Assembly (NCBI GenBank): GCA_026387795.1
Contig: JAPLLA010000032.1
Span: 1-35,507 of the forward strand
Direction: 5' to 3'
Source: Candidatus Saganbacteria bacterium
Lineage (GTDB): Bacteria; Margulisbacteria; WOR-1; JAPLLA01
Length of the DNA: 35,507 nt
This document shows positions 5,256 to 28,943 of the stretch, in pieces. Within the stretch, counting starts at the first letter, position 1. Every line of letters begins with the position of its first letter. The position numbers were made by a program, and so were the translations under genes. The notes beneath the pieces were generated by a model. That model did not search any database. It was not told the origin of the DNA and saw only the letters and a list, made by a program, of their open reading frames with translations.

Positions 5256-5387
5256 AAATCCTAAATTCTAAACCCTAAATCCTAAATAAATTCTAATATT
5301 TAAACTCAAAACCTCCAAACATTTTTAAAATTTAACAAATTCGGATTTTGAATTTGTTTAGGATTTCGAAATTCGGATTTAGGATTT
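5256..5387. repeat. Inverted pair of heptamer arrays, AAATCCT type (locus A)
   Basis: This fills the gap between the propeller-like gene and the metK stop codon. The left arm is four 7-mers in strict phase at 5256-5283: AAATCCT, AAATTCT, AAACCCT, AAATCCT. The right arm at 5360-5387 is the inverted equivalent: AGGATTT, CGAAATT, CGGATTT, AGGATTT. The AT-rich core between them includes GAATTTGTTT. The arms could pair as a long hairpin between two convergent genes, so it might also act as a bidirectional terminator. The same element type is at 15753-15860. Confidence 0.85.
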
Positions 5388-5394
5388 TCTTCTT

Positions 5395-6594
5395 TTAAGC
5401 AGCCTTCTTTAATTCGGATGCCTTGTCTGTGTATTCCCACGGCAAATCCAGCTCCGGCCTGCCAAAATGTCCATAAGAAGCAACTTGCCTATAAAGCGGC
5501 CGCCTCAAGTTTAAGTGTTTTATGATCATACCAGGCCTTAAGTCAAAGTTTTCACGGATCAGTTTTTCAATTTTCTCTTCTGCAATCTTGTTGGTGCCAA
5601 AAGTATCAACTCTTACAGAAAGCGGTTGTGCAACACCAATCGCATATGCCAGCTGTACTTCGCACCGGTCTGCAAGGCCGGCTGCAACAATGTTTTTTGC
5701 TACATATCTTGCGGCATAGCTGCCGGAACGGTCTACTTTGGTCGGGTCTTTTCCGGAAAAACATCCCCCGCCGTGTCTTCCCATGCCGCCATAAGTATCC
5801 ATAATGATTTTTCTGCCGGTAAGCCCGGTGTCTCCTTGAGGTCCCCCTACTACAAAACGTCCGGTGGTGTTAATATAAAACTTGGTTTTTTTATCAATAA
5901 GCTTTTTAGGTACAATTTTATTAATGACTTCTTTTATAATGGCGTCACGCAGGTCTTTGTTGTTGGCGTCTGGTTTATGCTGGGCAGCAATAACTATGCT
6001 GTCAACTCTGAGGATCTTGCTTCCTTCGTACTCTACGGTTACTTGGGATTTTCCGTCCGGACGGAGAAATGGAAGGGTCTTGTTTTTTCTTACTTCTGCC
6101 AATCTTTTTACCAGATTGTGTGCCAGGGTAATCGGGAGAGGCATTAATTCTTCTGTTTCTGTACAGGCGTAACCAAACATTAACCCTTGGTCCCCTGCTC
6201 CCAAGCCTTCTAAATCTTCTTTAATAACTTCTCCGCCCCGTACTTCCAAAGCAGTGTCTACTCCCCTGGCAATATCTTTTGATTGTTCTTGGATGGAAAC
6301 CATGACCCCGCAAGTTTCGTAGTCAAAACCCATTTTTGCATCGTTGTATCCAATGTCTTTTATCACTTCTCTTACAATCTTTGGGATTTCTACATAGCAA
6401 CCAGTGGTGATTTCCCCGCCAATTACTGCCAAGCCGGTAGTAACAAATGCTTCTACTGCTACCCTGCCTGGAGGGTCTTTACGAAGAATATCATCAAGTA
6501 TGGCATCCGAAATCTGATCACAAACTTTATCCGGATGCCCTTCTGTTACTGATTCCGAAGTAAAATAATGCCTTTGATTTGCTTTCTTTTTCAT
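5395..6594 (-). CDS. metK: S-adenosylmethionine synthetase
   Basis: MetK makes S-adenosylmethionine from methionine and ATP in the cytoplasm. The 399-residue length is normal. The N-terminal signature [16 protein letters not shown] and the phosphate-binding loop [16 protein letters not shown] are present. The latter has Cys where most homologues have Ala, a mild variation. The ATG at 6594 follows an AAGGAAGG-like ribosome site. Its promoter (TTGCGA-N17-TATAAT on this strand) gives a leader of only about 33 nt, so there is no room for a SAM riboswitch. It is a single-gene unit, divergent from the peptidase gene and convergent with the propeller-like gene. Confidence 0.97.
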
Positions 6595-6634
6595 ATATAA
6601 GGACCTTCCTTTTTAAGAAATTAAAAACTTGCGG

Positions 6635-6663
6635 ATTATAACACGGTTTGATAATAGTCGCAA
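6635..6663 (-). promoter_or_regulatory. metK promoter
   Basis: Read on the minus strand: -35 TTGCGA (6663-6658), a 17-nt spacer, -10 TATAAT (6640-6635) preceded by TG in the extended -10 position. Transcription should start near 6628. The site overlaps the divergent promoter at 6648-6676. Confidence 0.7.
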
Positions 6664-6676
6664 GGAATGTTAAAAT
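6648..6676 (+). promoter_or_regulatory. Promoter of the M15-type peptidase gene, near-leaderless
   Basis: TTGATA (6648-6653), 17-nt spacer, TAAAAT (6671-6676). The ATG at 6686 is only 9 nt beyond the -10 box, so the transcript would have almost no leader, which fits the absence of a ribosome site. Confidence 0.6.
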
Positions 6677-6685
6677 ACTCTCTCC

Positions 6686-7111
6686 ATGGGAAACTTAAGT
6701 GAACATTTTGGCGATAATAACTTTTTCTGCCGCTGCAAGGCATGCGGTAGTAGGGACTATCGCATCCACTTGGGACTGGTTGGCGCGCTTGAGGCAATAA
6801 TGGAACATTTTGGCAAGCCGTTGGAAGTGGTTTCCGGATATTGGTGTGATGATTTTTCGGAAAAGCAGACCGGGGGCAGAAAAACCGCACACAACAAAGG
6901 AAAAGCCGCTCACATCAAGATAAAAGATGTGCCGCTTACGGAACTCTTTAAGTTTGCGGAAACAATTCCCGAGCTTAATGGTGTTGGTTATTATCCTGCC
7001 GAAGGATTCATCCATGTGGATACGCGCAAAGAAGAAAAGAGCCTTTGGGCAAAAGAAGGGGACAAATATATCCCTTTGACCCCTGAAAAACGTACCCGCT
7101 ACGGTTTATGA
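6686..7111 (+). CDS. Peptidase M15A-like (D-Ala-D-Ala carboxypeptidase-type) protein
   Basis: A 141-residue protein resembling the Peptidase_M15_3/YcbK-like group, zinc enzymes acting on peptidoglycan peptides. It has the family N-terminal feature LSEHF followed by FFCRCKACG, then VVSGYW, TAHNKGKAAH (H69, H76) and GFIHVDTR (H110, D112). In the family the zinc is held by His and Asp of an HxxGxAxD motif plus the late His. Here the Asp position is His76, so the site would be three histidines or inactive. No signal peptide is visible, which is odd for a wall enzyme. The start is chosen because the ATG sits just behind a good promoter. It overlaps xerD by 4 nt. Family likely, activity uncertain. 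Confidence 0.75.
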   Translation: MGNLSEHFGDNNFFCRCKACGSRDYRIHLGLVGALEAIMEHFGKPLEVVSGYWCDDFSEKQTGGRKTAHNKGKAAHIKIKDVPLTELFKFAETIPELNGVGYYPAEGFIHVDTRKEEKSLWAKEGDKYIPLTPEKRTRYGL

Positions 7112-7986
7112 AGAAGCTCATACGCCAATTCCTTGCTAACCTGAAAACCGAACGCAATTTTTCCAAACATACCATTTCCAATTACGGCCGTGACCTGGCA
7201 CAGCTGGCAAAAATTGCTCCAGAGGACCCTTCTGAGTTCAACCTCTCCTTTGCTAGGCAGTTTTTGATTAAAATGGAAAAAGATGGATACGCTAAACGGT
7301 CAATTGCCAGGAAGATTTCTACTTTCCGTTCTTTTTTTAAATATTTGATTAACCAGGGGTTGGTAACCAAAAACTGGTGGGGTATTATTTCTCTTCCCAA
7401 GCTAGCCAGCAGGCTGCCAAATTTTCTATATTTGGAAGAGATGACTAAAATGTTAATGGCTCCAGATCTAAATACCCCTTTAGGACTGCGTGACCGTGCA
7501 ATTTTAGAGATCTTATATGCCAGCGGGATCCGGGTTTCTGAACTGGTGAGCCTGAAAAAAGGAGAAATAGATGAAGGGTCAGGGGAAATCAGGGTTTTTG
7601 GTAAAGGATCCAAGGAGCGGATTGTGTTAATCGGCAGCCATGCTAAACACGCATTACGTGAGTATTTGGGAAAAGGCAGACCCCAAATTTTAGGAAAAAC
7701 CAAGACCGATGCTTTATTTGTGGGATACAGGGGAACCCCACTTACAACACGTTCAGTAGAAAGATTATTGCAAAAATATGCCAAACAAGCAGGGATTAAC
7801 AAAAAAGTAACTCCACATACGTTGCGCCATACCTTTGCTACTCACATGTTAGACGGCGGAGCAGACCTTAGGGTAGTGCAAGAGCTCTTGGGCCACGCCT
7901 CCCTATCTACTACACAGGTTTATACGCATGTTACCCCCCAGCACCTTAAGAAAATCTATAAAGAATCTCACCCAAGGTCTGGTTGA
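7108..7986 (+). CDS. xerD: Tyrosine recombinase XerC/XerD
   Basis: Xer recombinases resolve chromosome dimers at dif during division. The 292-residue size and two-domain layout fit: an N-terminal SAM-like core-binding domain (about residues 1-90) and a catalytic domain with R142 (SGIRVSEL), H237 and R240 (HTLRH), H263 (LLGHAS) and the nucleophile Y272 (VYTHV). It starts in an ATGA overlap with the peptidase gene, so translation is probably coupled. It is a housekeeping-type recombinase, distinct from the integrase at 29203-30375. XerC and XerD cannot be told apart here; the symbol is a best guess. Confidence 0.88.
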   Translation: MKKLIRQFLANLKTERNFSKHTISNYGRDLAQLAKIAPEDPSEFNLSFARQFLIKMEKDGYAKRSIARKISTFRSFFKYLINQGLVTKNWWGIISLPKLASRLPNFLYLEEMTKMLMAPDLNTPLGLRDRAILEILYASGIRVSELVSLKKGEIDEGSGEIRVFGKGSKERIVLIGSHAKHALREYLGKGRPQILGKTKTDALFVGYRGTPLTTRSVERLLQKYAKQAGINKKVTPHTLRHTFATHMLDGGADLRVVQELLGHASLSTTQVYTHVTPQHLKKIYKESHPRSG

Positions 7987-8012
7987 CAACCTTTTAGTCA
8001 GGACGGTATAAT
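7983..8012 (+). promoter_or_regulatory. Strong promoter of the rpmF-plsX-fab operon
   Basis: A consensus -35 TTGACA (7983-7988), 18-nt spacer and consensus -10 TATAAT (8007-8012), beginning at the xerD stop codon. Transcription would start near 8019, giving a leader of about 35 nt to the ATG at 8054. It is the only perfect sigma-70 pair seen in this window and probably drives ribosomal protein and lipid synthesis genes together. Confidence 0.85.
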
Positions 8013-8053
8013 AGCGCGTTTGTTTCTTGTTGTGGGGAGGGGGAAGTTTGCCA

Positions 8054-8572
8054 ATGAGAATCGATGTTGCCGAGCTTTTAAAGGAAATAGGCAGGACCTC
8101 TTCTTTAAAAGAGGAGATTAATCCTTCCTATAAAGAAGAAGGATTAAATTTACAAGAACCGGTAAAAATTAAAATACGCCTTTTAAACACAGGTTCAGGC
8201 ATACTTTTAACCGGGACTTTGGATACAAAAATAGCAACAGAGTGCGTAAGGTGCTTGAAAAAATTCACCATACCATTGCATGTTGAGCTGGATGAAGAAT
8301 TCATGCGCAAAAATAAAGGGATCAGGCCCCACGGAGGAGAGATCCAGCTTACGGAAAAAGACTTTGTTTTTGCTTTAGAAGACGAGCATATTTTGGATCT
8401 GGAAGAAGTGATCAGGGAAAACCTGGTTATGGCTCTTCCTCTAAAGCCGGTATGCAGCAAGGCCTGCCCGCCCGTCTTGGCGGGTCCGCCTGCAGGTAAG
8501 GCTTGCAAAGGGGTCAAGGGTGATCCTAGGTGGCAGAAGCTTAAAGGAATAGTAAAAAAGAAAGGGGAATAA
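8054..8572 (+). CDS. DUF177 (YceD) family protein
   Basis: DUF177 proteins are encoded next to rpmF in most bacteria and are thought to act in 23S rRNA accumulation or ribosome assembly. This one has the family CVRCLKKF cysteine pair, the acidic DEEF segment, and C-terminal cysteines ending in GDPRWQKLKGI. I chose the ATG at 8054, behind GGGGAGGGGG, over an in-frame TTG at 8027. The C-terminal cysteine region carries about 13 extra residues (PPVLAGPPAGKAC) coming from an inserted GC-rich palindrome, listed separately. It is the first gene of the lipid operon and lies 2 nt before rpmF. Confidence 0.85.
   Translation: MRIDVAELLKEIGRTSSLKEEINPSYKEEGLNLQEPVKIKIRLLNTGSGILLTGTLDTKIATECVRCLKKFTIPLHVELDEEFMRKNKGIRPHGGEIQLTEKDFVFALEDEHILDLEEVIRENLVMALPLKPVCSKACPPVLAGPPAGKACKGVKGDPRWQKLKGIVKKKGE
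8459..8506. repeat. In-frame GC-rich palindromic insertion in the DUF177 gene
   Basis: A 30-nt GC-rich block (8468-8497) is flanked by a near-perfect 9-bp direct repeat, AAGGCCTGC (8459-8467) and AAGGCTTGC (8498-8506). It contains CCCGCC (8467-8472) and GGCGGG (8479-8484), able to form a 6-bp hairpin with a 6-nt loop. The net gain is 39 nt, or 13 codons, keeping the frame. The flanking repeat looks like a target duplication of a small REP/MITE-like element, but could also be a replication-slippage product. Confidence 0.6.
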
Positions 8573-8574
8573 TT

Positions 8575-8793
8575 ATGCCAGTACCAAAGAAAAGACATTC
8601 GCGTTCCAGACAGGGAAAAAGGAGAAACGCAAATTGGAAGTTGGAATTGCCAACGCTTGTTAAATGTGTCAATTGCGGAGCACCGGTCCCGCCTCACCAC
8701 GCATGTACAGAGTGTGGCTTTTACCGCGGCCGCGCAGTAATCGCAATCAAAAAAGACAAAAAAGAGAGCAAAGCCCAAAAGGAGAAGAAGTAG
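8575..8793 (+). CDS. rpmF: 50S ribosomal protein L32
   Basis: L32 is a small zinc-ribbon protein of the large ribosomal subunit. The N-terminus MPVPKKRHSRSRQGKRR is diagnostic, and the four zinc cysteines C31, C34, C44 and C47 are all present. The lysine-rich tail makes it 72 residues, slightly longer than the usual 55-60. It sits between the DUF177 gene and plsX, the classical order linking ribosome and phospholipid synthesis. A GGGGAATAATT stretch 5' of the ATG supplies the ribosome site. Confidence 0.97.
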   Translation: MPVPKKRHSRSRQGKRRNANWKLELPTLVKCVNCGAPVPPHHACTECGFYRGRAVIAIKKDKKESKAQKEKK

Positions 8794-8795
8794 TT

Positions 8796-9782
8796 TTGAT
8801 TCGCATTGCTGTTGATGCTATGGGGGGAGACCATTCCCCTGCAGAGACTGTAAAAGGTGCAGTAGCAGCTGCTAAAGAATTTTCTTTTCAAATAATTTTG
8901 GTGGGACAAGAAGCGGTTATTAAAAAAGAGCTCTCTAAATACCCCGCATTTTCCAACATCTCAATTAAAAATGCTTCTGAAACCATTGGAATGGACGAAG
9001 CCCCTGCTTCCGCAGTAAAACAAAAAAAAGATTCCTCTTTAAACGTTGGCATCGCACTGGTTAAAAACAAAGAAGCAGACGGTTTTGTTTCTGCCGGCAA
9101 CACCGGAGCACTCATGGCAGCGGCTTTATTCGGCTTAGGCCGGATCAAAGGGATAGAACGTCCAGCTATTGCCACGGTTTTCCCAATTGCAGACGGCAGG
9201 ATTTTGCTTTTGGATATGGGGGCAAATGTAGACTGCAAGCCGCAACACTTGCAGCAGTTTGGCAGAATGGGCAGTCTATATGCTGAAAAAGTATTGCATA
9301 TTAAGAACCCCAGAGTTGGGCTTTTAAATATTGGAGAAGAAAAAGAAAAGGGGAACGAACTAACTCAAGCAGCCTGGCCTTTGCTTAAAGGTTCCCCGAT
9401 CAACTTTATTGGCAATGTTGAAAGCAAGGAAATTTTGTCCGGTACGGTAGATGTAGTGGTTTGTGATGGCTTTGTTGGCAACCTAATCTTAAAGTTTAGT
9501 GAATCTTTAGCAAAACATATTATTAATATGCTTAAAAAAGAAGTAAAAAAGAATCTCATTGCACAATTAGGAGCGCTCATGCTATTGCCATCGCTGCGTA
9601 ATCTTAGAAAAATGGTGGATTACGATGAGCAGGGGGGGGCGCCATTTTTGGGTGTGAACGGAGTTTGCATTAAAGCCCACGGCAGGTCCAAAGCTAAAGC
9701 GATTAAAAATGCAATCCGGGTAACCGGAGAAGCAATTTCCGAAAACATGATCACCTGTCTTTCGGCATCGGAGAATAAATAA
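8796..9782 (+). CDS. plsX: Phosphate acyltransferase PlsX
   Basis: PlsX makes acyl-phosphate from acyl-ACP, the first step feeding phosphatidic acid synthesis. The N-terminus IRIAVDAMGGDHSP is diagnostic, as are SAGNTGALMAAA and VVCDGFVGNLILK. The reading frame stays open far into rpmF, but the family starts at this motif, so I place the start at TTG 8796, two nt after the rpmF stop and behind AAGGAGAAG. That gives 328 residues, the normal length. The stop shares one base with the fabH start. A peripheral membrane location is expected from the family. Confidence 0.95.
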   Translation: MIRIAVDAMGGDHSPAETVKGAVAAAKEFSFQIILVGQEAVIKKELSKYPAFSNISIKNASETIGMDEAPASAVKQKKDSSLNVGIALVKNKEADGFVSAGNTGALMAAALFGLGRIKGIERPAIATVFPIADGRILLLDMGANVDCKPQHLQQFGRMGSLYAEKVLHIKNPRVGLLNIGEEKEKGNELTQAAWPLLKGSPINFIGNVESKEILSGTVDVVVCDGFVGNLILKFSESLAKHIINMLKKEVKKNLIAQLGALMLLPSLRNLRKMVDYDEQGGAPFLGVNGVCIKAHGRSKAKAIKNAIRVTGEAISENMITCLSASENK

Positions 9783-10750
9783 TGGCTAGAAGAGCAGCAA
9801 TTATCGGAACAGGTTCTTTTTTCCCTCCAAAGGTTGTTACAAATAACGATTTAACTAAAGTGGTAGAGACTTCCGATGAGTGGATCCGTAGCCGTTCCGG
9901 GATTGAAGAAAGGCATGTTACAGATTACGCAACCGCAACTTCTGATCTGGCAACCGAAGCAGGCAAGAAAGCGCTTGCAGCATCTGGGGTTGATCCTCTT
10001 TCCGTAGAATTAATTGTGGTGGGGACCACTTCTCCGGATACGCTTTTTCCTTCGGTAGGAGCAATCCTGCAGGATCGCTTGGGCTTAAAAAAAGCGGTAG
10101 CTTTTGATGTTTCCGCAGCTTGTTCCGGCTTTAATTATGCCTTGACCATTGCTTCGGCTTTTATAGAAAACGGTACCTATAATAATGTATTAGTGGTTGG
10201 AGCAGATACGCTTACCAAATATGTGGATTGGACAGACCGTAGCACTTGTGTGCTTTTTGGGGATGCAGCTGGAGCAGTAGTTTTGACCGCAAAAGAAGAT
10301 GGTTCCGGGGTCTTATCTAACTATCTGTATACAGATGGGGCAGGTGGAAAAGACCTGGTAATGCCTGGCGGGGGTTCGCGCGATCCAGAGATGAGGAATG
10401 GACGTTTTATAAAAATGAACGGGAAAGAAGTGTTTAAGTTCGCAGTGCGTGCTTTGGAAGCTTCTGTGGTTGAAGTTGTTAAAAAAGCAGGCTTGGAGCT
10501 TTCTCAAATTTCCTGCTTGATTCCGCACCAGGCAAATATTAGAATAATTGACCATGTAATCAAAAAGCTTGGTTTCCCGGCAGAAAAAGTGTTTGTTAAC
10601 TTGCAAAAATACGGTAACACTTCCGCTGCTTCTATTCCGCTAGCGCTGGATGAAGCAGTAAAAGCAGGGAAGATCAAAAAGGGAGACATAGTGGTTCTCG
10701 CTGGATTCGGAGCAGGATTGACGGCAGGAGCTAATGTGATCAAGTGGTGA
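9782..10750 (+). CDS. fabH: 3-oxoacyl-ACP synthase III (FabH)
   Basis: FabH starts type II fatty acid synthesis by condensing a short acyl-CoA with malonyl-ACP. The thiolase-fold catalytic triad is complete: C114 in AACSGF, H249 in PHQANIR and N279 in YGNTSAAS. The 322-residue length is standard. It overlaps plsX by 1 nt. Directly downstream lie a heptamer array and the acyl-CoA dehydrogenase/ETF genes, which could plausibly provide a saturated short acyl-CoA primer; that link is inference from position only. Confidence 0.97.
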   Translation: MARRAAIIGTGSFFPPKVVTNNDLTKVVETSDEWIRSRSGIEERHVTDYATATSDLATEAGKKALAASGVDPLSVELIVVGTTSPDTLFPSVGAILQDRLGLKKAVAFDVSAACSGFNYALTIASAFIENGTYNNVLVVGADTLTKYVDWTDRSTCVLFGDAAGAVVLTAKEDGSGVLSNYLYTDGAGGKDLVMPGGGSRDPEMRNGRFIKMNGKEVFKFAVRALEASVVEVVKKAGLELSQISCLIPHQANIRIIDHVIKKLGFPAEKVFVNLQKYGNTSAASIPLALDEAVKAGKIKKGDIVVLAGFGAGLTAGANVIKW

Positions 10751-10758
10751 GATTCAGG

Positions 10759-10874
10759 GTGAGTTGTGAGCAGTGTGTTGTGAGGCGAGTTGTGGGTTGT
10801 GAGTGTGGGATATAATAAGCCCACAACCCATTCCCATTACCCACCCCACAACTCATAACACATAACTCACAACA
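10759..10874. repeat. Inverted pair of heptamer arrays, GTGAGTT type, with internal TATAAT (locus D)
   Basis: Left arm: GTGAGTT, GTGAGCA, GTGTGTT, GTGAGGC at 10759-10786, a 5-nt phase break, then GTGGGTT and GTGAGTG (10792-10805). Right arm: CACAACT, CATAACA, CATAACT, CACAACA at 10847-10874, the inverse of the left. Between them lies TATAAT at 10811-10816, with only weak -35 candidates inside the left arm. The element separates fabH from the acyl-CoA dehydrogenase gene, where it could hold an internal promoter or a hairpin. Same architecture as locus A but a different 7-mer. Confidence 0.85.
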
Positions 10875-10896
10875 TTTTTAAAAAGGGAGGAAAACG

Positions 10897-12057
10897 ATGC
10901 TTGATTATCTATTGACTGAGGAACAGATTATGGTGAGGGATTTGGCAAGAAAAGTGGCGCGGGAAAAAGCGTTACCCAAAAGGGCGGAATGGGACGAAAC
11001 AGGGGAGTTCCCATGGGAGGCGTTAAAAGCTTTTTCCGACGCAGACCTTTGCGGGCTATACATTCCGGAAGAGTTAGGGGGCTTTGGACAAAGCGTATTT
11101 AACTTTTGCTTGGCAACAGAAGAAATCAGCCGCGTTTGCGGAGGAGTGGGAGTTACCTTTGCTGCATCCGCGCTTGGCTCTACTCCGATCCTTCTTTTTG
11201 GAACAGACGAACAAAAGAAAAAATATATGCCTCCCATTGCCAAAGGGACCAAACTTGCAGCTTTTGGCTTAACAGAAGCAAACGCAGGTTCCGATGCCGC
11301 AGGGATTGAAACGGTAGCAAAAAAAGACGGAGACTATTTTATTATTAATGGGACCAAACAGTGGATTACAAACGGAGGAGAAGCGGAAACCTATACCGTT
11401 ATCGCCATGACAGACAAAAGCAAAGGACCAAGAGGAGCTACTGCTTTTATAGTTGAAAAAGGTACCCCGGGTTTTACTTTTGGTAAAAAAGAAAACAAAA
11501 TGGGAATCCGCTGCAGCGCAACCCGCGAATTGGTTTTCCAGGATTGCAAAGTCCACAAGAGCCAAGTTTTGGGAAGAGAAGGAATGGGTTTTATTGTTGC
11601 AATGAAGACCTTGGACCTTACCCGTCCCGGGATTGGCGCTCAAGCAGTAGGGATTGCACAAGGTGCACTTGACGAAGCGATAAAATATGCCAGGGAAAGG
11701 GTGCAGTTTGGCAAACCGATCTCTTCTTTGCAAGCCATACAACACATGTTGGCAGACATGGCGACCTCGGTAGAAGCTGCCAGGGCATTGGTTTATGCCA
11801 CTGCCAGAATGATTGATGCAGGGCATAAAGACTATACCCTTCCTGCTTCAGAAGCCAAACTTTTTGCTTCTGACACAGCTATGAAGGTAACAATCGATGC
11901 CATCCAAGTATTGGGTGGATACGGCTACATGAAAGAATATCCGGTTGAGAAAATGGCAAGGGATGCTAAAATAACCCAAATTTACGAAGGGACCAACCAG
12001 ATCCAGCGTAATCAGATCGGGCTAGCCTTGATCAAAGAAAGTGCACAAAAAAAATAG
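10897..12057 (+). CDS. Acyl-CoA dehydrogenase, short-chain/butyryl-CoA type
   Basis: An FAD enzyme that interconverts acyl-CoA and 2-enoyl-CoA. The 386 residues cover the usual alpha, beta and C-terminal alpha domains. Visible motifs are LTEANAGSDAAG and QWITNGGEA around the FAD and substrate, and IYEGTNQIQR with the catalytic base E364 in the position used by short-chain and butyryl-CoA enzymes. It starts behind a strong AAGGGAGG site and is followed after 2 nt by etfB and etfA. With a ferredoxin-containing ETF it may work in the reducing direction (crotonyl-CoA to butyryl-CoA). Chain length is not provable from sequence alone. Confidence 0.93.
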   Translation: MLDYLLTEEQIMVRDLARKVAREKALPKRAEWDETGEFPWEALKAFSDADLCGLYIPEELGGFGQSVFNFCLATEEISRVCGGVGVTFAASALGSTPILLFGTDEQKKKYMPPIAKGTKLAAFGLTEANAGSDAAGIETVAKKDGDYFIINGTKQWITNGGEAETYTVIAMTDKSKGPRGATAFIVEKGTPGFTFGKKENKMGIRCSATRELVFQDCKVHKSQVLGREGMGFIVAMKTLDLTRPGIGAQAVGIAQGALDEAIKYARERVQFGKPISSLQAIQHMLADMATSVEAARALVYATARMIDAGHKDYTLPASEAKLFASDTAMKVTIDAIQVLGGYGYMKEYPVEKMARDAKITQIYEGTNQIQRNQIGLALIKESAQKK

Positions 12058-12059
12058 CC

Positions 12060-12848: not shown

Positions 12849-14084
12849 ATGAGCATCAAAATTCTATTAGATAAATGCACGGGTTGTTCTCTTTGTGTCA
12901 AAGCTTGCCCCTTTGCTGCAATCACTATGATCGATCGGCCGGCAGACGCGCCGGGAAAAGGTAAAAAAATCGCGCAGATCGATTTGGATGTTTGCACCCT
13001 CTGCGGTGCTTGCGTTCCGTCTTGTAAATTCAATGCCATTGACTTGAAAAAAGACCTGGGTGGCGGTGACATTGACCTTTCACACTATAAAGACGTTTGG
13101 GTTTTTGCCGAACAGCGCGAAGGCAAAGTCCAGTCAGTTGCTTACGAGCTGTTGTCCGAAGGCAGGCAATTGGCAGCTGATTGCGGGAGCTTGCTTTGCG
13201 CGGTGTTATTGGGCGATGCGAGCATTGAAGAAGAAGTTGACCAGCTTTTTAAATATGGTGCGCAAAAAGTTTATCTGGTTACGCATCCGGAATTAAAAGA
13301 TTATCGTACTGCGCCTTACACCAGAGCATTGGCTGAGGTGGTTACTAAACATAAACCAGAGATCATTTTGTTGGGTGCAACCACTCTGGGACGTGACCTG
13401 GCAGCGCGCCTTGCGATCCGGGTTGGTGCAGGGCTCACTGCTGATTGTACGGGCCTGGCCATAGACCCGGTCAAAAAACATCTTTTACAAACCCGCCCTG
13501 CTTTTGGCGGCAATATCATGGCAACTATTCAGACTATCCGCCATCGGCCGCAGATGGCAACTGTAAGAACAAAGGTCTTCAAAAAATCCCAAATCCAAAA
13601 TCCAAAATCCCAAGAAGGGAATGTGATCAGATTTACGCCGGTGATCGACCAAAACGATTTGGTGGTTAAGTTGTTGGATATAATCAAGGATGAGAGCGTA
13701 AAAGTTAATTTACAGGACGCGGAAATTATTGTTTCGGGTGGCCGTGGACTAGGAGAAGCCAAGAATTTTAAATTAATTGAAGAATTGGCAGCAGTATTAG
13801 GCGGAGCAGTAGGCGCATCCCGTGCAACAGTGGATGCGGGATGGATTTCTGCTCACCATCAAGTAGGCCAGACTGGGAAAACAGTTTGTCCCAAACTCTA
13901 CATTGCCTGCGGGATTGCAGGGAAAATCCAACACTTAGCTGGCATGCAGTCTTCGGATACTATTGTTGCTATTAACAAAGATCCGGACGCTCCAATATTT
14001 AAGGTTGCTCACTATGGCATTGTCGGCGACCTGTTTGAATATGTTCCGTTATTGACGAAAAAAATAAAGGAACTAAGGGGCTAA
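12849..14084 (+). CDS. etfA: Electron transfer flavoprotein alpha subunit with N-terminal 2[4Fe-4S] ferredoxin domain
   Basis: Residues 1-65 are a ferredoxin domain with eight cysteines in two CxxCxxCxxxC groups (C10/13/16/20 and C49/52/55/59). The ETF alpha N-domain follows (VWVFAEQ, LLGATTLGRDLAARLA), then the FAD domain (GGRGLGEAKNF, SRATVDAGW, QVGQTGKTV, YIACGIAGKIQH, INKDPDAPIF). At 411 residues the extra length over ordinary EtfA comes from the ferredoxin. The caffeyl-CoA reductase CarE subunit is a known example of this fusion. The linker before the FAD domain contains residues encoded by a heptamer array (13584-13611). It probably exchanges electrons with ferredoxin. The stop overlaps the fabD start by 1 nt. 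Confidence 0.95.
   Translation: MSIKILLDKCTGCSLCVKACPFAAITMIDRPADAPGKGKKIAQIDLDVCTLCGACVPSCKFNAIDLKKDLGGGDIDLSHYKDVWVFAEQREGKVQSVAYELLSEGRQLAADCGSLLCAVLLGDASIEEEVDQLFKYGAQKVYLVTHPELKDYRTAPYTRALAEVVTKHKPEIILLGATTLGRDLAARLAIRVGAGLTADCTGLAIDPVKKHLLQTRPAFGGNIMATIQTIRHRPQMATVRTKVFKKSQIQNPKSQEGNVIRFTPVIDQNDLVVKLLDIIKDESVKVNLQDAEIIVSGGRGLGEAKNFKLIEELAAVLGGAVGASRATVDAGWISAHHQVGQTGKTVCPKLYIACGIAGKIQHLAGMQSSDTIVAINKDPDAPIFKVAHYGIVGDLFEYVPLLTKKIKELRG
13584..13611. repeat. Four-unit heptamer array inside the etfA coding sequence (locus C)
   Basis: AAATCCC, AAATCCA, AAATCCA, AAATCCC in perfect 7-nt phase. Translated in frame it gives about KSQIQNPKSQ, an atypical hydrophilic linker between the ETF alpha N-domain and the FAD domain. 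It belongs to the same sequence class as loci A and B but has no inverted partner nearby. 28 nt is not a multiple of three, so flanking bases must compensate to keep the frame. Confidence 0.8.
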
Positions 14085-15010: not shown

Positions 15011-15747
15011 AATTAAAAGATAAAGTTGCGCTTGTTACTGGTTCTGCCCAAGGGATAGGGCGTGCAGTAGCGGCTGCGCTAGCCCAAGAAGGAGCCAATG
15101 TTATTATTTCCGATGTGAACCTGGATTTGGCAACACAGACCGCACAAGAAATCACATCTTTGGGAGTTAAATCGCAGGCATATAAACTGAATGTCACCGA
15201 CCTGGCAGAAGTTGAAGCAACAGTTGCCCAGATGATCAAAGATTTTGGCAAGATCGATATTCTGGTTAATAATGCCGGGATAACCAAAGACAATCTCTTA
15301 ATGCGAATGAAGAAAGAAGAATGGGATGCAGTCATTGGCGTTAATCTTACCGGAGTTTTTAATTGTACAAAAGTGGTTGGTACCTTGATGATGAAAGCCC
15401 GCTACGGTAAAATAGTAAATATTGCCAGCATCGTTGGCCAGATGGGTAATTTTGGCCAGGCGAATTATGCGGCTAGCAAGGGAGGGGTCATTGCTTTTAC
15501 CAAGACCGTGGCCAAGGAGCTGGCCTCGCGCAATGTGACTGCCAATGCCATTGCTCCGGGCTTTATCCAGACAGCAATGACAGACAAGCTTTCTGACGAA
15601 GTGAAACAAAAAATGATGACCCAGATCCCGCTGGGAAAACTCGGATTGCCGGAAGATATTGCAAAAGCAGTGGTTTTTTTGGCGAGCGCGGACGCAGACT
15701 ACATTACCGGACAAGTTTTAGCCGTTAATGGCGGAATGTACATGTAA
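15007..15747 (+). CDS. fabG: 3-oxoacyl-ACP reductase
   Basis: FabG reduces 3-ketoacyl-ACP with NADPH. This 246-residue short-chain dehydrogenase has the cofactor loop TGSAQGIG, the NNAG motif, the active-site pair Y154 and K158 (YAASK), and the standard C-terminal ITGQVLAVNGGMYM. Start codon within the ATGA overlap with fabD. A heptamer element begins 5 nt after its stop and separates it from acpP. Confidence 0.97.
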   Translation: MKLKDKVALVTGSAQGIGRAVAAALAQEGANVIISDVNLDLATQTAQEITSLGVKSQAYKLNVTDLAEVEATVAQMIKDFGKIDILVNNAGITKDNLLMRMKKEEWDAVIGVNLTGVFNCTKVVGTLMMKARYGKIVNIASIVGQMGNFGQANYAASKGGVIAFTKTVAKELASRNVTANAIAPGFIQTAMTDKLSDEVKQKMMTQIPLGKLGLPEDIAKAVVFLASADADYITGQVLAVNGGMYM

Positions 15748-15752
15748 GGAGG

Positions 15753-15860
15753 AAATCCTAAATCCGAAATCCTAAATACTAAACAAATTCTAAATTCAAA
15801 AGTTTTTAAAATTTGAATTTAAAAGTTTTGAAATTGTTTAGGATTTAGATATTAGGATTT
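15753..15860. repeat. Inverted pair of heptamer arrays, AAATCCT type (locus B)
   Basis: Left arm: AAATCCT, AAATCCG, AAATCCT, AAATACT (15753-15780), then AAACAAATTC. Right arm: AATTGTTT, then AGGATTT, AGATATT, AGGATTT (15840-15860). The core is itself AT-rich and palindromic. It shares sequence and build with locus A more than 10 kb away. It lies in the gap between fabG and acpP, so it could form a hairpin in the operon mRNA just before the acpP ribosome site. Confidence 0.85.
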
Positions 15861-15887
15861 AGAGTTTTTTAAAAAGGGGGTGAGAGA

Positions 15888-18418: not shown

Positions 18419-18460
18419 CGATTTTTTCTCCCCTTCATTTTAAAGGCCACAGGGCTGTGT

Positions 18461-18466: not shown

Positions 18467-18523
18467 TTCCCCTAAGGACGCATTTTTTGGGTTTGTTGGA
18501 ACGATTTATATCTATGGGGTAGA

Positions 18524-24486: not shown

Positions 24487-24495
24487 TTGGGGTTT

Positions 24496-24524
24496 AGTAT
24501 AACATAATCTAGAGTTGGACTGAA
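24496..24524 (-). promoter_or_regulatory. Promoter of the S8 protease gene, near-leaderless
   Basis: On the minus strand: TTCAGT (24524-24519, weak), 17-nt spacer, TATACT (24501-24496). The ATG lies 9 nt beyond the -10 and no ribosome site fits between, so a nearly leaderless mRNA is expected. Confidence 0.5.
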
Positions 24525-24544
24525 AGTTTGGGAAAGGGTATAAT
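24515..24544 (+). promoter_or_regulatory. Promoter of ridA, near-leaderless
   Basis: TTGGAC (24515-24520), 18-nt spacer, TATAAT (24539-24544). The ATG at 24553 is 8 nt downstream with no ribosome site. The -35 region overlaps that of the divergent protease promoter. Confidence 0.6.
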
Positions 24545-24552
24545 TCCCATCG

Positions 24553-25017
24553 ATGCCGATAGAAAACAAAATAAAAGAATTGGGATTTGAACTTCCAGCT
24601 GTAACTCTGCCGGTAGCAGCGTATGTGCCGGTAGTAAAAACAGGGAATCTTTTGTTTTGTTCCGGCCAGCTTCCCATGCGTGACGGCAAAGTGGCTTTTA
24701 TGGGAAAAGTGGGGAAGGATTTGAGCAAAGAAGAGGCACAAAAAGCAGCTCAGCTTTGTTTGCTGAATGGCTTGGCTGTAATCAAAAAAGAGACTGGGGA
24801 ACTGGACAGAATTAAGAGGGTTGTGAGGTTAACTGGATACGTTAACTCTGCTCCTGGGTTTATAGAACAGCATATAGTAATGAATGGTGCATCCGAATTG
24901 GCAGTGGCCATCTTTAGTGACAAAGGGAAGCATACCCGCGTAGCAGTGGGGGTTGCTGAACTGCCGCTTGATGTGGCAGTGGAAGTGGATCTTATTGTTG
25001 AGATTGCGGAGGGATAA
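24553..25017 (+). CDS. ridA: RidA family reactive imine/enamine deaminase
   Basis: RidA (YjgF/YER057c/UK114) proteins hydrolyse reactive 2-aminoacrylate and related imines that damage PLP enzymes. This 154-residue protein has R129 in HTRVAVGVAELP, the conserved substrate-carboxylate arginine, with the acidic partner E136. It is longer than the ~128-residue archetype and resembles the larger RidA subfamily with an N-terminal extension (NKIKELGFELP). It is followed after 3 nt by a PLP aminotransferase, a sensible partner for imine clearance. Confidence 0.9.
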   Translation: MPIENKIKELGFELPAVTLPVAAYVPVVKTGNLLFCSGQLPMRDGKVAFMGKVGKDLSKEEAQKAAQLCLLNGLAVIKKETGELDRIKRVVRLTGYVNSAPGFIEQHIVMNGASELAVAIFSDKGKHTRVAVGVAELPLDVAVEVDLIVEIAEG

Positions 25018-25020
25018 GAG

Positions 25021-26226
25021 ATGAAAAAAGGGAAATTAATAGAACGAACCAAAAAAGTGCTTTCTCCTGTACTTGCCCGTTACTTTGAATTGGAAGTAAA
25101 AGGGGGCCGCGGAGCATTTTTAACCGGGTTGGATGGACGCAAGTATCTGGATTTTTCTACCGGGATTGCAGTCAACAGTCTGGGGCACTGCCATCCAAAC
25201 ATTGTGGAGGCAATTGAAAAGCAAACGCGGCATTTGATCCATGTTTGCGCAGGGATTGCTTACTACGAAGCAAATGTAGCTTTAGCGGAAAAGCTAAAAG
25301 AGATACTGCCGGCTCCTCTGGAGAGCGTTTTCTTTTGCCAGAGCGGAACAGAAGCAGTAGAGGGGGCAATGAAACTTGCCAAATATGTTACCAAGAAACC
25401 GGGGATTATTACTTTTAAAGGGGCATTTCATGGCCGGACACTGGGTGCGCTTTCTGTAACTACTTCAAAAGCAAAATATCAAGAAGGGTATAAGCCCTTG
25501 CTGCCCAATGTTTATGTGGCGAGCAAGGACATCGATTCTTTTAAGAAGGTTGTTGCTAAAGTGGGGAAAGGTAAGATTGCGGCAGCAATTATTGAGTTAG
25601 TCCAGGGAGAAGGGGGATATATTATTCAGGATCCTTTCTTTGTTAAAGAATTAGTGGTGTTTTGCAAATCACAGGGGATACTTTTGATCTTAGATGAAAT
25701 CCAGTCCGGACTGGGGCGTACGGGAAAATGGTTTGCTTGCCAACATTTTGGGATTGTTCCGGATATTATGTGCATTGCCAAGTCTTTGGGAGGGGGGTTG
25801 CCGCTTGGGGCAGTGGTCTCTTCCAAGAAAATTATGGAACAATGGTCTCCTGGTGCACACGGCGGGACCATGGGAGGCAATCCCGTAGCTTGTGCGGCAG
25901 GACTTGCTATGTTGGAAGTGATCCAAAAACAGAAAATTTTGGATAACGTACAGAGCATGGGAGGATACCTGAAACAAAAGCTTTTGGCTTTGCAAGCACA
26001 GTATCCAAAAATCAAAGAAGTCAGGGGCCTAGGTCTTATGTTGGGGGTAGATTTTAAAGATTCCGCTTACGCCAAGCATATAATCAATACTTGTTTATCG
26101 CGGGGACTGGTTTTGATCAGTACAGGAGCAGACGGACAAGTAGTACGTTTTATTCCTCCGCTTAATGTAGCCAAAGCGCAAGTCGACAACGCCTTGCAAA
26201 TTTTTGAGCGTGTTTTAAAAGGATAA
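25021..26226 (+). CDS. Class III PLP aminotransferase (acetylornithine/4-aminobutyrate type)
   Basis: A 401-residue fold-type I aminotransferase. Visible are FSTGIAVNSLGHCHP, the phosphate-binding QSGTEAVEGAMKLAK, FKGAFHGRTLGALS, LILDEIQSGLGRTGKW with the PLP-ring aspartate, and IAKSLGGG with the Schiff-base lysine K254. The late GGTMGGNPVACAA is typical of the ornithine and GABA branches. These motifs cannot separate ArgD-like from GabT-like activity, and no arginine or GABA pathway gene is nearby, so no symbol is given. It follows ridA by 3 nt and precedes rlmB by 3 nt. Confidence 0.9.
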   Translation: MKKGKLIERTKKVLSPVLARYFELEVKGGRGAFLTGLDGRKYLDFSTGIAVNSLGHCHPNIVEAIEKQTRHLIHVCAGIAYYEANVALAEKLKEILPAPLESVFFCQSGTEAVEGAMKLAKYVTKKPGIITFKGAFHGRTLGALSVTTSKAKYQEGYKPLLPNVYVASKDIDSFKKVVAKVGKGKIAAAIIELVQGEGGYIIQDPFFVKELVVFCKSQGILLILDEIQSGLGRTGKWFACQHFGIVPDIMCIAKSLGGGLPLGAVVSSKKIMEQWSPGAHGGTMGGNPVACAAGLAMLEVIQKQKILDNVQSMGGYLKQKLLALQAQYPKIKEVRGLGLMLGVDFKDSAYAKHIINTCLSRGLVLISTGADGQVVRFIPPLNVAKAQVDNALQIFERVLKG

Positions 26227-26229
26227 TAT

Positions 26230-26964
26230 ATGGAAATACTCCAAGGTAAAAACGTAGTTTTAGAAGCATTGCGCGCAGGCCAGCCTTTGCGCGAGGTTCT
26301 TTTGGACAGAACGCTCCGCCGCGATCAGGTAATTACGGAAATTTTTACCCTGGCCAAAAGCAGCGGGATCCAGGTTTATTGGTCTGACAAAAAGAACCTC
26401 AACTGCCTATCAAAAGGAGAGCGGCACCAAGGTGCAGTAGCGCAGCTTGCCGGTAGGCAATATTTGGCGCTTGAAGATATTTTGGAAGTAGCAGAGAAAA
26501 AAGGGGAGCAGCCATTTCTTCTTTTACTGGACGGGATCGAAGATCCTCATAATTTAGGGGCGATCATCCGCACTGCGGATTGCAGCGGTGTACACGGGGC
26601 AGTAATCCCAAAACGCAGGGCAGTGGGGCTTACTCCTACGGTTTCTAGAACTTCAGCAGGTGCTACCGCATACTTGCCTGTAGCCAGGGAAGCAAATATC
26701 AACAATGTTATCCGTAGTTTAAAAGAAAAAAATGTTTGGGTGGTGGGTGTGGAAGCCAGCGCAAAAAAAGCGTACACAGAAGCGGATTTTACCATGCCTG
26801 TGGCTTTGGTGATTGGGAGTGAAGGGGAGGGGCTGGCTGAACAAGTAAAAAAGAACTGCGACTTTTTGATTTCCATACCAATGTACGGCCATGTGAATTC
26901 TCTAAACGCTTCGGTTGCAGCTGCGATTGTGATGTATGAGGTAGTGAGGCAGAGAAAAGGATAG
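26230..26964 (+). CDS. rlmB: 23S rRNA (guanosine-2'-O-)-methyltransferase RlmB (TrmH/SpoU family)
   Basis: SpoU methyltransferases transfer a methyl from SAM to a ribose 2'-OH. The 244 residues comprise an N-terminal substrate-binding domain (GKNVVLEALRAGQP, then CLSKGERHQGAVA) and the knotted SPOUT domain with motif 1 LDGIEDPHNLGAIIRTAD, motif 2 VALVIGSEGEGL and motif 3 IPMYGHVNSLNASVAAAI. G2251 of 23S rRNA is the usual target. The last 16 codons recur in a second, degenerate copy at 27674-27725, beyond the lipoprotein gene. Confidence 0.93.
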   Translation: MEILQGKNVVLEALRAGQPLREVLLDRTLRRDQVITEIFTLAKSSGIQVYWSDKKNLNCLSKGERHQGAVAQLAGRQYLALEDILEVAEKKGEQPFLLLLDGIEDPHNLGAIIRTADCSGVHGAVIPKRRAVGLTPTVSRTSAGATAYLPVAREANINNVIRSLKEKNVWVVGVEASAKKAYTEADFTMPVALVIGSEGEGLAEQVKKNCDFLISIPMYGHVNSLNASVAAAIVMYEVVRQRKG

Positions 26965-26968
26965 AAGC

Positions 26969-27670
26969 GTGATAGGTTTTTCTAAAAACTTATTAGCATT
27001 AATGTTGCTGCTGGCCACTTTTTTGTTTGTTGGTTGCACGACTGTCCCGCCAGAAAGTACCACAATTTTGGGGCTGGATACTTTTACTGGAATGGAAATT
27101 ATAAATAACAGTTTTGTGATTTATCTTGACTATTTCCCACTTGCTACTATAGAGGGGCGTCTTATAGTAAGAAAAAATAATGTTGTTCTGGTAAGTGGGG
27201 TAGATTATGTTGTCCCTACTACAGAAGTGGATCCTATTACAGGATATGCTCGCGTTATACCTGAGACCAGGCTCCCATTTTTTATTAATACACGAGAAGA
27301 TTTGTCAGATGGATATTATACAGGCACGATCAAATTTTTAGATAACACCTTGTTTCCGACAGATGAAGTAACGGTGACTTATAACTACATGAAACCAACG
27401 GTTTGCACTTATTCCATCAGTGGGACAGGAAGTCGGGGACCGTACTATATTGCGAATCATCCTAAAATTGTTCCCGGGGAACAGGTGGTGACAGTGTGGA
27501 ATACTGGAAGTTCCAATGAAACGATCTATACTGGGAATACCAGTTTTGAGCCTGATATGGGGGCAACTGGATATTCTTTTGGTTATTATCAGCCCAATCC
27601 CTATATTATGTTTAATACTGCCCTAGATACTAATAAGCGTTTTAGCATTTCCTATCGGAGCGTGAATTAG
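26969..27670 (+). CDS. Lipoprotein: stand-alone copy of a module of the 1372-residue envelope protein
   Basis: 233 residues starting at GTG 26969 behind AAAAGGA. It has a short lipoprotein signal ending LATFLFVGC, with C23 as the likely lipidated cysteine. Residues about 33-232 match residues 490-692 of the large barrel protein (18524-22642) nearly end to end. Shared blocks include GVDYVVPTTEVDP, REDLS(N/D)GY, GSRGPYYI and EPDMGATGYSF. The overall match is more than half identical by eye, with no large gaps. It was probably made by duplication and given its own lipid anchor, so it may be a periplasmic partner or competitor of that protein. The gene lies between two copies of the rlmB 3' end. 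Confidence 0.85.
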   Translation: MIGFSKNLLALMLLLATFLFVGCTTVPPESTTILGLDTFTGMEIINNSFVIYLDYFPLATIEGRLIVRKNNVVLVSGVDYVVPTTEVDPITGYARVIPETRLPFFINTREDLSDGYYTGTIKFLDNTLFPTDEVTVTYNYMKPTVCTYSISGTGSRGPYYIANHPKIVPGEQVVTVWNTGSSNETIYTGNTSFEPDMGATGYSFGYYQPNPYIMFNTALDTNKRFSISYRSVN

Positions 27671-27673
27671 TTT

Positions 27674-27725
27674 TTCGGTTTTGCAGCTGCGATTGTGATG
27701 TATGAGGTTGTCCGCCAGAGAAAAG
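27674..27725 (+). pseudogene. Second copy of the rlmB 3' end
   Basis: This stretch repeats rlmB 26910-26959, differing by a 2-nt insertion near its start and a few substitutions. The last codons still read VMYEVVRQRK in both copies. The differences there (gtagtgagg versus gttgtccgc) are all synonymous, so the second copy diverged while still coding. It has no start and cannot be expressed alone. The two copies bracket the lipoprotein gene like the ends of an inserted cassette. Confidence 0.8.
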
Positions 27726-27816
27726 TTTTAATTTTATTTTAGTCTCCTAAAAATCCTAGAAAACCTGAAATTTTTAATACATTAAGCAGATAAGATAGTA
27801 ATAGCAGGAGGACTTT

Positions 27817-28803
27817 ATGCCTAGTTTAATGGCTTTGGCTGGACGCGGAATAGTGGCAGCAAAATTTAGGATCGCATTCCCATTTCTAACATCCAAACAA
27901 GTAAGAATATTAACTCGCAGGGCTTCTTTAGACGAGGGGATGGGAGAAGTAACGGTTTTAAATACTCCCAGGTTACGGGCATTGTTTGACGATCAGCTAA
28001 TGGGTTCTATTGCCGATCTTTCTGGACCATCTCATATCAGGCTTATCAAAGTTGAAAAAGGATTTATTGAAAGGCAAAGAGTAGTCCAGTTTGTCCTTGC
28101 CAATAAAGCTTTGGTTGGCGGACACCTTGGATTTTTAGTGGCACTGGGACTGGCAGCTCTAGCTTTTCCAGGAGAAGCAGGGGAAGTAGTTGATCGTTTT
28201 AAAGAGTGGACCACAGCCAATCCGTGGTCTTCTTCCGCCATTAAATTTGCTTTGCTGGGGACATATGGGGACATGTTGGGGGGCAGGGTGGCAACCGGAA
28301 AATGGAACTTTTCTTTAAGGGACAATCTTTCCAAGCTCCTTTATTGGGCAGGTGCTGGAGTTGCGATCAAAGGGGCTTTTAAAATTTATTTTGGCGGGAT
28401 GGATGTTTTGGCTGAGGAGCTCCCATTTTTAAAGACCCAGATATTCGGCTTATCCATATTTAAAGCATTTTTAACTTCGGCAGTTCTAAACTCAACTTTT
28501 TATCCTTTACTGGTAAAAGCGCATGCCAGCTACGACCAGCATGCAGAGGCTTTGAAACAAAATTTTAGCGTGGGAAGATTATTGACAGAGCCGCTCCGCT
28601 TTGCCAAAGATTTGGCAACCTGTAAATTCCTGAAAATTAAAAGGGACTGGATACCTCTGGCCAAAAGGTTCTGGCTGCCTGCGCACACCATTACTCCGCT
28701 TTTGCCGCCGGTGTGGCAGATCCTATATGCAGCGCTGCTTTGTCCGGTTTTGGGGGTGGATGTGGGGGTACGGGCTGCAGAGGCAAAGAAACAGAAAGCT
28801 TAA
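27817..28803 (+). CDS. Membrane protein, possibly Mpv17/PMP22-like
   Basis: A 328-residue protein with an AGGAGG ribosome site 9 nt before the ATG. The first 100 residues are soluble-looking with many basic residues. Hydrophobic segments follow at about residues 108-128 (GGHLGFLVALGLAALAF), 180-200, 220-240 and near the C-terminus (PPVWQILYAALLCPVLGV). NPWSSSAIKFALLGTYGDML and FWLPAHTITPLLPP resemble a conserved uncharacterised group that looks distantly like Mpv17/PMP22 proteins. That assignment is a weak impression. It appears to be a single-gene unit. A perfect 7-bp palindrome (GCTTAAG, A, CTTAAGC, 28798-28812) covers its stop codon. Confidence 0.7.
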   Translation: MPSLMALAGRGIVAAKFRIAFPFLTSKQVRILTRRASLDEGMGEVTVLNTPRLRALFDDQLMGSIADLSGPSHIRLIKVEKGFIERQRVVQFVLANKALVGGHLGFLVALGLAALAFPGEAGEVVDRFKEWTTANPWSSSAIKFALLGTYGDMLGGRVATGKWNFSLRDNLSKLLYWAGAGVAIKGAFKIYFGGMDVLAEELPFLKTQIFGLSIFKAFLTSAVLNSTFYPLLVKAHASYDQHAEALKQNFSVGRLLTEPLRFAKDLATCKFLKIKRDWIPLAKRFWLPAHTITPLLPPVWQILYAALLCPVLGVDVGVRAAEAKKQKA

Positions 28804-28824
28804 GACTTAAGCAAAACAGTTACA

Positions 28825-28853
28825 TTGCCATTCCCCACCCAAATTGATATAAT
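28825..28853 (+). promoter_or_regulatory. Promoter upstream of heptamer locus E and tRNA-Tyr
   Basis: TTGCCA (28825-28830), 17-nt spacer, TATAAT (28848-28853). Transcription would start at about 28860 and run directly into the heptamer array, two hairpins and, 230 nt on, tRNA-Tyr. It is the only good promoter seen before the tRNA. Confidence 0.65.
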
Positions 28854-28861
28854 TTCCAAAT

Positions 28862-28943
28862 TAACTAACAACTAACGACTGACAACTAACAACCGAAGGA
28901 AGTATTATTTAATAATTAGTTGTAAGTTGTAAGTAGTTAGTTG
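28862..28943. repeat. Inverted pair of heptamer arrays, CAACTAA type (locus E)
   Basis: Left arm: TAACTAA, CAACTAA, CGACTGA, CAACTAA, CAACCGA (28862-28896). Right arm: TTAGTTG, TAAGTTG, TAAGTAG, TTAGTTG (28916-28943), the inverse. The core is about 20 nt and AT-rich. The array starts at the expected transcription start of the promoter at 28825-28853, so the RNA would begin with a long hairpin. Confidence 0.85.

Follow-up and report, generated by a model that had tools for sequence, protein, structure and literature searches.

Four intergenic loci in a contig of Candidatus Saganbacteria (JAPLLA010000032.1; the window is the whole stretch of 35,507 nucleotides that was analysed) carry arms of degenerate 7-nt units facing each other across a core. 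The question they raise is whether some process makes such arrays afresh at each locus, as a preliminary description proposed, or whether the arrays are copies of dispersed elements. All four inverted loci, and a single-arm array inside etfA, were recovered where that description had placed them. Five lag-7 segments in the window exceed the threshold, against a mean of 0.03 and a maximum of 1 in 150 order-3 Markov simulations. Across 405 kb of the same genome, 20 segments were found at lag 7 and 15 at its harmonic, lag 14, while other lags gave 0-3; a single simulated genome gave none at lag 7, and the expectation that the arrays are genome-wide and exceed chance is thereby borne out. The pattern AAATCCNAAATCCNAAA occurs 53 times in the genome, compared with 6 occurrences of the reversed pattern.

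The locus at 5256-5387 (forward strand) is a full palindrome of 132 bp, assigned to what we call family A, which fills the gap between two convergent genes, a forward-strand gene ending at 5247 and metK, and stands 8 and 7 nt from their respective stop codons. Its left arm reads AAATCCT AAATTCT AAACCCT AAATCCT followed by an AAAT joint, and its right arm, read on the reverse strand, AAATCCT AAATCCG AATTTCG AAATCCT followed by an AAAC joint. A second full family A palindrome, of 115 bp and with a short core (15753-15867, forward strand), lies between a fabG-like gene ending at 15747 and the next ORF. The palindrome at 10759-10874 (family B', AGTTGTG words, no strand assigned) separates a 3-oxoacyl-ACP synthase III-like gene ending at 10750 from an acyl-CoA dehydrogenase gene starting at 10897, and resembles L130:17650-17771 in both layout and sequence. 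The fourth, at 28862-28943 (family B, AACTAAC/AGTTGTA words, likewise unstranded), has the core CCGAAGGAAGTATTATTTAATAATTAG, similar to those at L120:14008-14103 and L142:~820-898. Inside the etfA ORF (12849-14084), the single-arm array of family A type at 13584-13610 (forward strand) reads in frame as KSQIQNPKS, and the loop is at most about 2 residues longer than that of the solved CarE EtfA homologue.

The four loci fall into three dispersed repeat families, which agrees with the earlier view that they are not copies of one transposon. Of the three different 7-mers claimed for them only two word classes remain, since GTGAGTT and CAACTAA are both forms of a single word, AGTTGT-N; it is the cores that distinguish three families. 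Each word class is tied to its own dispersed family, and words do change against a constant unit length and layout, in this genome as well as from one genome of the class to another. The core described as AT-rich is, in family A, itself partly heptameric, with the AAAC joint followed by AA-NNN-C-A words. The description also pointed to promoter-like signals, and both are present: TATAAT occurs in the core at 10759-10874, and a sigma-70-like match, TTGCCA-17-TATAAT (28825-28853, forward strand; 11/12 to consensus, TG before the -10), lies just upstream of the 28862 array, whose edge coincides with the expected start, and upstream of a tRNA at 29087-29169. The latter is a consensus match only, and neither signal tells of function.

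Family A can be aligned end to end over 12 loci as an element of 132, 122 or 115 bp. Flanks of the copies are unrelated, and the stem does not continue beyond the ends. Four words per arm, exact ends, the AAAC joint and an alignable core recur at 12 of 12 loci, a uniformity that speaks against an array-making process acting anew at each site. The family A word is AA-NNN-C-(T/G): in this genome positions 1, 2 and 6 are invariant in all 152 words, and the remaining positions vary by 13-53%. In other genomes AANNNC is kept in 295 of 320 words while dialects switch (for example to AACTTCA, AACATCA or AAGATCA), a conformity overstated by the search model and the register fit, each of which favours AANNNC.

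Local replication slippage with a 7-nt step, of the STRR/LSSR type, is a rival explanation in which such arrays arise locally, with inverted pairs arising as two arrays or by template switching. In its favour, lag 7 is preferred in the class and also in certain genomes unrelated to it (rumen Clostridia loci L087 and L091), and heptanucleotides were the commonest long simple repeats in most genomes surveyed by Mrazek (2007), who proposed slippage, as summarised in PMC4679880. Identical neighbouring words are also as frequent as expected in coding single arms. In full palindromes, however, to which both this result and the fixed number of four words apply, adjacent words are seldom identical, the opposite of what slippage produces: 5 of 114 neighbours against 14.5 expected in this genome (p<=1e-4), and 18 of 240 against 27.5 in others (p=0.0015). 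The likeness of opposite arms falls short of that predicted from word order (0.731 versus 0.765, p=0.0005), marginally so in other genomes (p=0.07), which indicates that they are not fold-back copies of each other. This test used oriented elements, because mixed orientation could fake the result, and within-arm order shuffles. Because genomes differ in word dialect, column shuffles across them were dropped as a null. We therefore consider slippage an unlikely origin.

We favour instead the view that the arrays are copies of several small, non-autonomous palindromic repeat families with heptamer-built arms, tolerated in gaps between genes and in protein loops, and we give this reading a probability of about 0.58. 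Searched with a sequence model, 26 of the 31 class genomes contain family A; the 80 strand-wise matches in the present genome are equivalent to about half as many places. Comparison of orthologous regions, which the preliminary description had called for, revealed presence differing between congeneric species: a pyrC-like/lipoprotein gap that holds a palindrome of 128 bp in G028 has 53 bp of different sequence in G022, and an array in an lpd loop of G007 is absent from G002. The G028 palindrome lies between genes, and its right arm contributes to a signal peptide. Empty alleles are not clean: they hold a different short stretch, AT-rich or palindromic, which makes replacement possible. In two congeners a coding family B array agrees in both position and length, so some copies are old and static. 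Copies have diverged, and no master copy was seen. No target-site duplication was seen in 16 elements without edge slack, and with slack the count fell below the shuffled mean. Among Y1 transposases, the only kind looked for, no autonomous partner was seen.

Under this reading, copies would spread through a putative trans-acting enzyme and persist where harm is least. Full palindromes occupy short intergenic gaps, often flush with stop codons, and also occur between co-directional genes. Coding copies are single arms rather than whole palindromes, found in frame in EtfA, MurF, HemW, HisRS, LeuRS, ProRS, IleRS, ValRS, CysRS, MnmA and BioA; three loops of LeuRS, compared in 28 genomes, hold differing repeat families or a short native loop. 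Full palindromes would carry stops if read through, so genes may retain mainly half-elements rich in stop-free words, presumably oriented so that a hydrophilic loop is encoded.

Some of this placement could reflect use by the host, with the elements serving as terminator or mRNA-stabilising hairpins or as paired binding sites for a global regulator, the last being a proposal made for similar Geobacter repeats. Among 20 elements examined, a stop codon is no more than about 10 nt away from most stop-side edges; palindromes fill their gaps, T runs follow some copies, and the AA...C frame is invariant. In the alignment of 12 copies, the arms at the two ends, 28-38 columns long, form terminal inverted repeats with 81% of cells paired; this pairing (81.4%) is below all 500 shuffles (83.9%), and double changes are fewer than expected, so that nothing points to selection for the stem, and the result is the opposite of maintenance by compensatory change. 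A terminator scan found no terminator-like site at the 5256, 10759 or 15753 arrays, and at 28862-28943 the sole match is short and lies, tail included, inside the left arm. The arrays show no general terminator signature: instead of a short G+C-rich stem with a T run, their stems are long and AT-rich, and T runs accompany only some copies. Given also the copies between co-directional genes, the single arms in proteins and the variable presence between congeners, a host function seems to us somewhat less probable even than slippage. Movement as REP/REPIN-type elements by a RAYT (Y1) transposase is very improbable and was rejected, for although the genome holds four Y1_Tnp matches, the inspected Y1 genes are flanked by their own unrelated short hairpins (e.g., TGGAAACCGGAGGCTGAATGCCTCGGTTTCCA) and not by heptamer arrays, a distance of 1.1 kb separates them from the nearest family A copy, and the arms are AT-rich and far longer than REPs.

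If the arrays are indeed dispersed palindromic families, their 7-nt frame is probably read by a putative protein. AA...C every 7 nt might mark the contacts made by a DNA- or RNA-binding protein (a transposase or chromosome protein), which would explain why the four other letters can switch while the frame stays; unlike neighbouring words might in turn shield the element from loss by slippage or recombination. More speculatively, the AA...C steps may be the footprint of a protein that forms a filament along DNA or RNA, each heptamer bound by a single subunit, and that mobilises or organises the elements in different phyla and in phages while words between contacts drift and neighbours differ; we offer this as a tentative proposal. 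Judged from named genomes, cross-phylum occurrence is weakly supported, because the match in Rokubacteria GWC2_70_16, in a locus of 49.5% GC, could be a binning error. Viral contigs of 54-65% GC that also carry arrays, some within long ORFs, are better support. STRR heptamers are known in RNase P RNA; in the part of the alignment examined, rnpB of class members has no heptamer array and carries other palindromic inserts. If our reading is right, uncultured bacteria harbour a large set of repeats, hardly described so far, that enters the genes of housekeeping enzymes and becomes part of what they encode. Repeat words would then spell out loops of EtfA, MurF, HemW and the aminoacyl-tRNA synthetases, and what passes for variation in protein sequence would be turnover of repeats. 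With its freely switched letters and its unlike neighbours, the fixed AA...C frame also opens to testing the old question of why heptamer repeats in bacteria have units of 7 nt.

Several known systems share parts of this architecture. Like bacterial MITEs, the elements are short, AT-rich, non-autonomous and dispersed, with terminal inverted repeats; unlike MITEs, they lack target-site duplications (in the 16 elements above). Among Y1 transposases, no related transposon ends were seen. Y1 genes flanked by the repeat, typical of REP/RAYT systems, were not seen among those inspected. The account in PMC4679880 describes STRR, long simple heptanucleotide repeats and the TAACTGA repeats of Beggiatoaceae as tandem, often degenerate and mostly intergenic, with several words per genome in some hosts (e.g., Microcystis), and as direct arrays of variable length, with one inverted case in 170 sets. 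Our arrays share the tandem 7-nt units, but form inverted pairs with a fixed four words and a conserved core, and full palindromes lack the variable copy number and near-identical neighbours of STRR. Rickettsia palindromic elements, 100-150 bp palindromes of several families (PMC2229807, PMC10969869), resemble our elements in lying in frame within conserved protein genes as well as between genes, although here intragenic copies are single arms and arms are arrays of 7-nt words. Also close are the sites of Geobacter metallireducens. According to the main text of Aklujkar et al. 2009 (PMC2700814), each has three to five 7- or 8-mers in tandem, sites on opposite strands form pairs, a single genome contains several unit sequences, and a four-heptamer family is found between genes as well as within them; the inverted form, earlier thought undescribed, is thus already known. 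For G. bemidjiensis, passages in PMC2996986 describe a multicopy family inserted into genes without frameshift. Tandem heptamers paired on opposite strands and several unit sequences per genome are common to both systems, whereas the Geobacter words are different, and that main-text description reports neither a fixed core or exact element ends nor an invariant frame or word-order rule. The repeats described here are a more elaborate form of those already noted in Geobacter, cyanobacteria and Rickettsia.

The four inverted heptamer loci of the preliminary description, and its single-arm array in EtfA, are present in the window where it placed them, and such arrays exceed chance expectation. 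The window holds five lag-7 segments, where 150 simulations from an order-3 Markov model average 0.03, and among lags 4-15 in 405 kb of its own genome, lag 7 gives 20 segments (0 in one simulated genome), its harmonic at lag 14 gives 15, and the others 0-3. Across all 2.04 Mb of that genome, AAATCCNAAATCCNAAA matches 53 times versus six for the reversed control; the pattern is also present in other members of the class and has no match in 26 genomes from the phylum's other classes. Of 31 class genomes, 21 contain AGTTGTNAGTTGTNAGT, and the control gives no match.

An array survey of 696 kb, a sample that includes regions picked because they contained matches, together with a half-element profile search, defines a dispersed repeat, family A, whose oriented copies align end to end at lengths of 132, 122 or 115 bp. 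Its architecture is fixed: each arm carries four AA-NNN-C-(T/G) words in strict register, a joint AAAC, and more words AA-NNN-C-A before a short core. Because the two arms are distinguishable (typically ...AAACAAATTC versus ...AAACAATATC), the element is directional. A sequence model detects family A in 26 of the 31 class genomes, with 80 strand-wise matches in the own genome and 79, 52 and 45 in G005, G009 and G015, counts that are about twice the number of places since most places match both strands. In the window, 5256-5387 and 15753-15867 belong to family A, 10759-10874 to family B' (resembling L130:17650-17771, in another compared locus), and 28862-28943 to family B, with a core common to copies in loci L120 and L142. 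Two word classes and three families thus account for all four loci. Elsewhere (L142:6845-7030, L120:14008-14103 and L129:16150-16300), small palindromes of other families (CCCGCTCC...GGTGCGGGA; GGTCCGACAAACGTCGGACC) interrupt or adjoin family A or B palindromes, arrangements that we read as nested insertion of different repeat families. Two arrays at 34640-34735 in the window (AACATCAGA; GTTACTGAT), close to the end of the ORF at 32118-34688, look like an inverted pair laid out as the heptamer palindromes are, with a 9-nt unit.

The best reading is that the arrays belong to several families of non-autonomous palindromic repeats, whose copies are tolerated in intergenic gaps and protein loops. 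Among the 152 words of 19 full own-genome family A copies (38 arms), the frame is invariant, with no change at word positions 1, 2 and 6 and departures from the commonest base of 13%, 34%, 53% and 20% at positions 3, 4, 5 and 7. The profile search cannot alone account for the lack of any change at these 456 sites, since a 130-bp element with one or two changes would still be detected. Forty copies from other genomes retain AANNNC, which the register fit favors, in 295 of their 320 words, and the remaining letters are swapped wholesale (for example, AACTTCA, AACATCA, AAGATCA and AAAATCT).

An origin by slippage is disfavored for full palindromes, which hold a constant word number and unlike neighbors: identical adjacent words number 5 of 114 versus 14.5 expected in own copies (p<=1e-4) and 18 of 240 versus 27.5 in other genomes (p=0.0015), and when six own copies that were not in the discovery set are analyzed by themselves, the rule is not significant (4 of 36 versus 5.0). 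Slippage may apply to single arms, which have no such deficit and include, for example, four AAATCCA in a row. Opposite arms are also less alike than word order predicts (own copies, p=0.0005; marginal in other genomes, p=0.07). Pairing in the alignment is 81.4% versus 83.9% when shuffled, lower than in all 500 shuffles, and double changes in the family A stem are fewer than expected; thus, the stem is without visible selection for pairing.

Full copies occupy the gap between adjacent ORFs, most stop-side edges lying no more than about 10 nt from the stop codon, which can be explained as neutral insertion into very short gaps. Our scans, and the occurrence of copies between co-directional genes, argue against a role as terminators. 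Single arms reside in frame within MurF, HemW (two), HisRS, ProRS, IleRS, BioA, ValRS, MnmA, CysRS and EtfA; the LeuRS gene carries three in-frame arrays, one from another word class, and UvrA an array of a different word. Names other than EtfA were assigned by reading protein sequences, and matches to solved structures confirmed CysRS. Among 16 family A-type coding arrays, 15 carry AAATCC in the sense orientation and encode hydrophilic, KSEIRNPKSE-like peptides; the single antisense case encodes FGFVSGFEFRISD, adjoining a membrane segment, and in G028 an antisense right arm contributes hydrophobic residues to a signal peptide. The repeat makes a CysRS loop about 15 residues longer than in a solved structure and adds at most two residues to EtfA. 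When LeuRS is compared across 28 genomes, three of its loops contain family A peptides, those of other repeat families (such as LTPCPSPTGRGG and ICHLSFVICHL) or a short plain loop.

Other repeat families lie in frame in loops of conserved enzymes at L126 (LeuRS), L122 (HemW), L151 (CysRS), L197, L201 and L213, giving peptides such as LTPCPSPTGRGG, SPSPLIRGKGDGG and LSPSLIKRGG-like ones encoded by G+C-rich palindromes. Aminoacyl-tRNA synthetases (Leu, Pro, Ile, Val, Cys, His) are strikingly frequent among own-genome coding arrays, a post hoc observation in a biased sample; possibly, long-lived genes gather more insertions. The rnpB genes of class members (L230-L248) carry short G+C-rich palindromic inserts, differing by genome, apparently at helix tips. 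In the window, a tRNA gene (29087-29169), separated from the family B palindrome by 144 nt, adjoins a minus-strand tyrosine recombinase/phage integrase gene (29203-30375), a possible border of an integrated element.

Presence and absence differ between congeners in the two pairs compared. A dihydroorotase-like gene and a lipoprotein gene are separated in G028 by a family A copy of 128 bp, and the equivalent gap in G022, between genes 74-80% identical, is 53 bp of different sequence. At lpd, G007 has a family B array and G002 a different short palindrome; one intragenic family B array has equal place and length in both congeners, with three base differences. Elements are therefore gained and lost within genera; some copies stay in place, and sites without an element are not clean.

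The proposed families of non-autonomous repeats would spread by transposition through a trans-acting enzyme, with a protein recognizing the 7-nt frame. Word mixing would protect them: near-identical direct or inverted repeats would be lost via slippage, recombination or hairpin cleavage, and mixed words would survive. Target-site duplications, as in classical MITEs, were not found in the elements examined. RAYT-driven movement is disfavored by the flanks of the Y1 genes inspected. Y1 (RAYT-like) transposase genes at L137:4685-5026 and L154:5144-5488 are flanked by their own TGGAAACC(G)GAGGCTGAATGCCTCGGTTTCCA hairpins, with a tandem run of three upstream of the C63 copy.

Viral contigs with 54-65% GC also contain arrays of own-genome words, some within long ORFs; AGTTGTN arrays are found at 46 distinct places in viral contigs (median GC 0.59), four of them with an inverted partner. 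In IMG/VR contigs L388, L389 and L391 (59-65% GC), AAATCCG arrays lie within long ORFs, encoding peptides such as EKIRNPKSEIRNGED, and thus phage or provirus genes carry arrays too. Rumen Clostridia contigs (L087, L091) have dense heptamer arrays of other words (AATTATG, AATAATT, AAAAATG), about five per 11-13 kb, some in hairpins. Together with the viral contigs, they extend the phenomenon past this class.

Heptamer simple repeats are widespread, with a slippage origin proposed, according to the summary in PMC4679880; TAACTGA arrays are direct, and inverted in one among 170 sets (PMC4679880). RPEs are palindromes in frame within conserved rickettsial genes (PMC2229807, PMC10969869), and Geobacter bemidjiensis has a multicopy family in genes without frameshift (PMC2996986). 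In the open-licence papers searched, where absence is weak evidence, we found no description of copies that have fixed ends, an invariant AA...C frame, switched words and neighbors that differ. The nearest precedent is G. metallireducens, for which PMC2700814 reports opposite-strand pairs of sites with four octamers, three repeats or five heptamers, as well as a four-heptamer family found both inside and between genes, read as global regulator sites.
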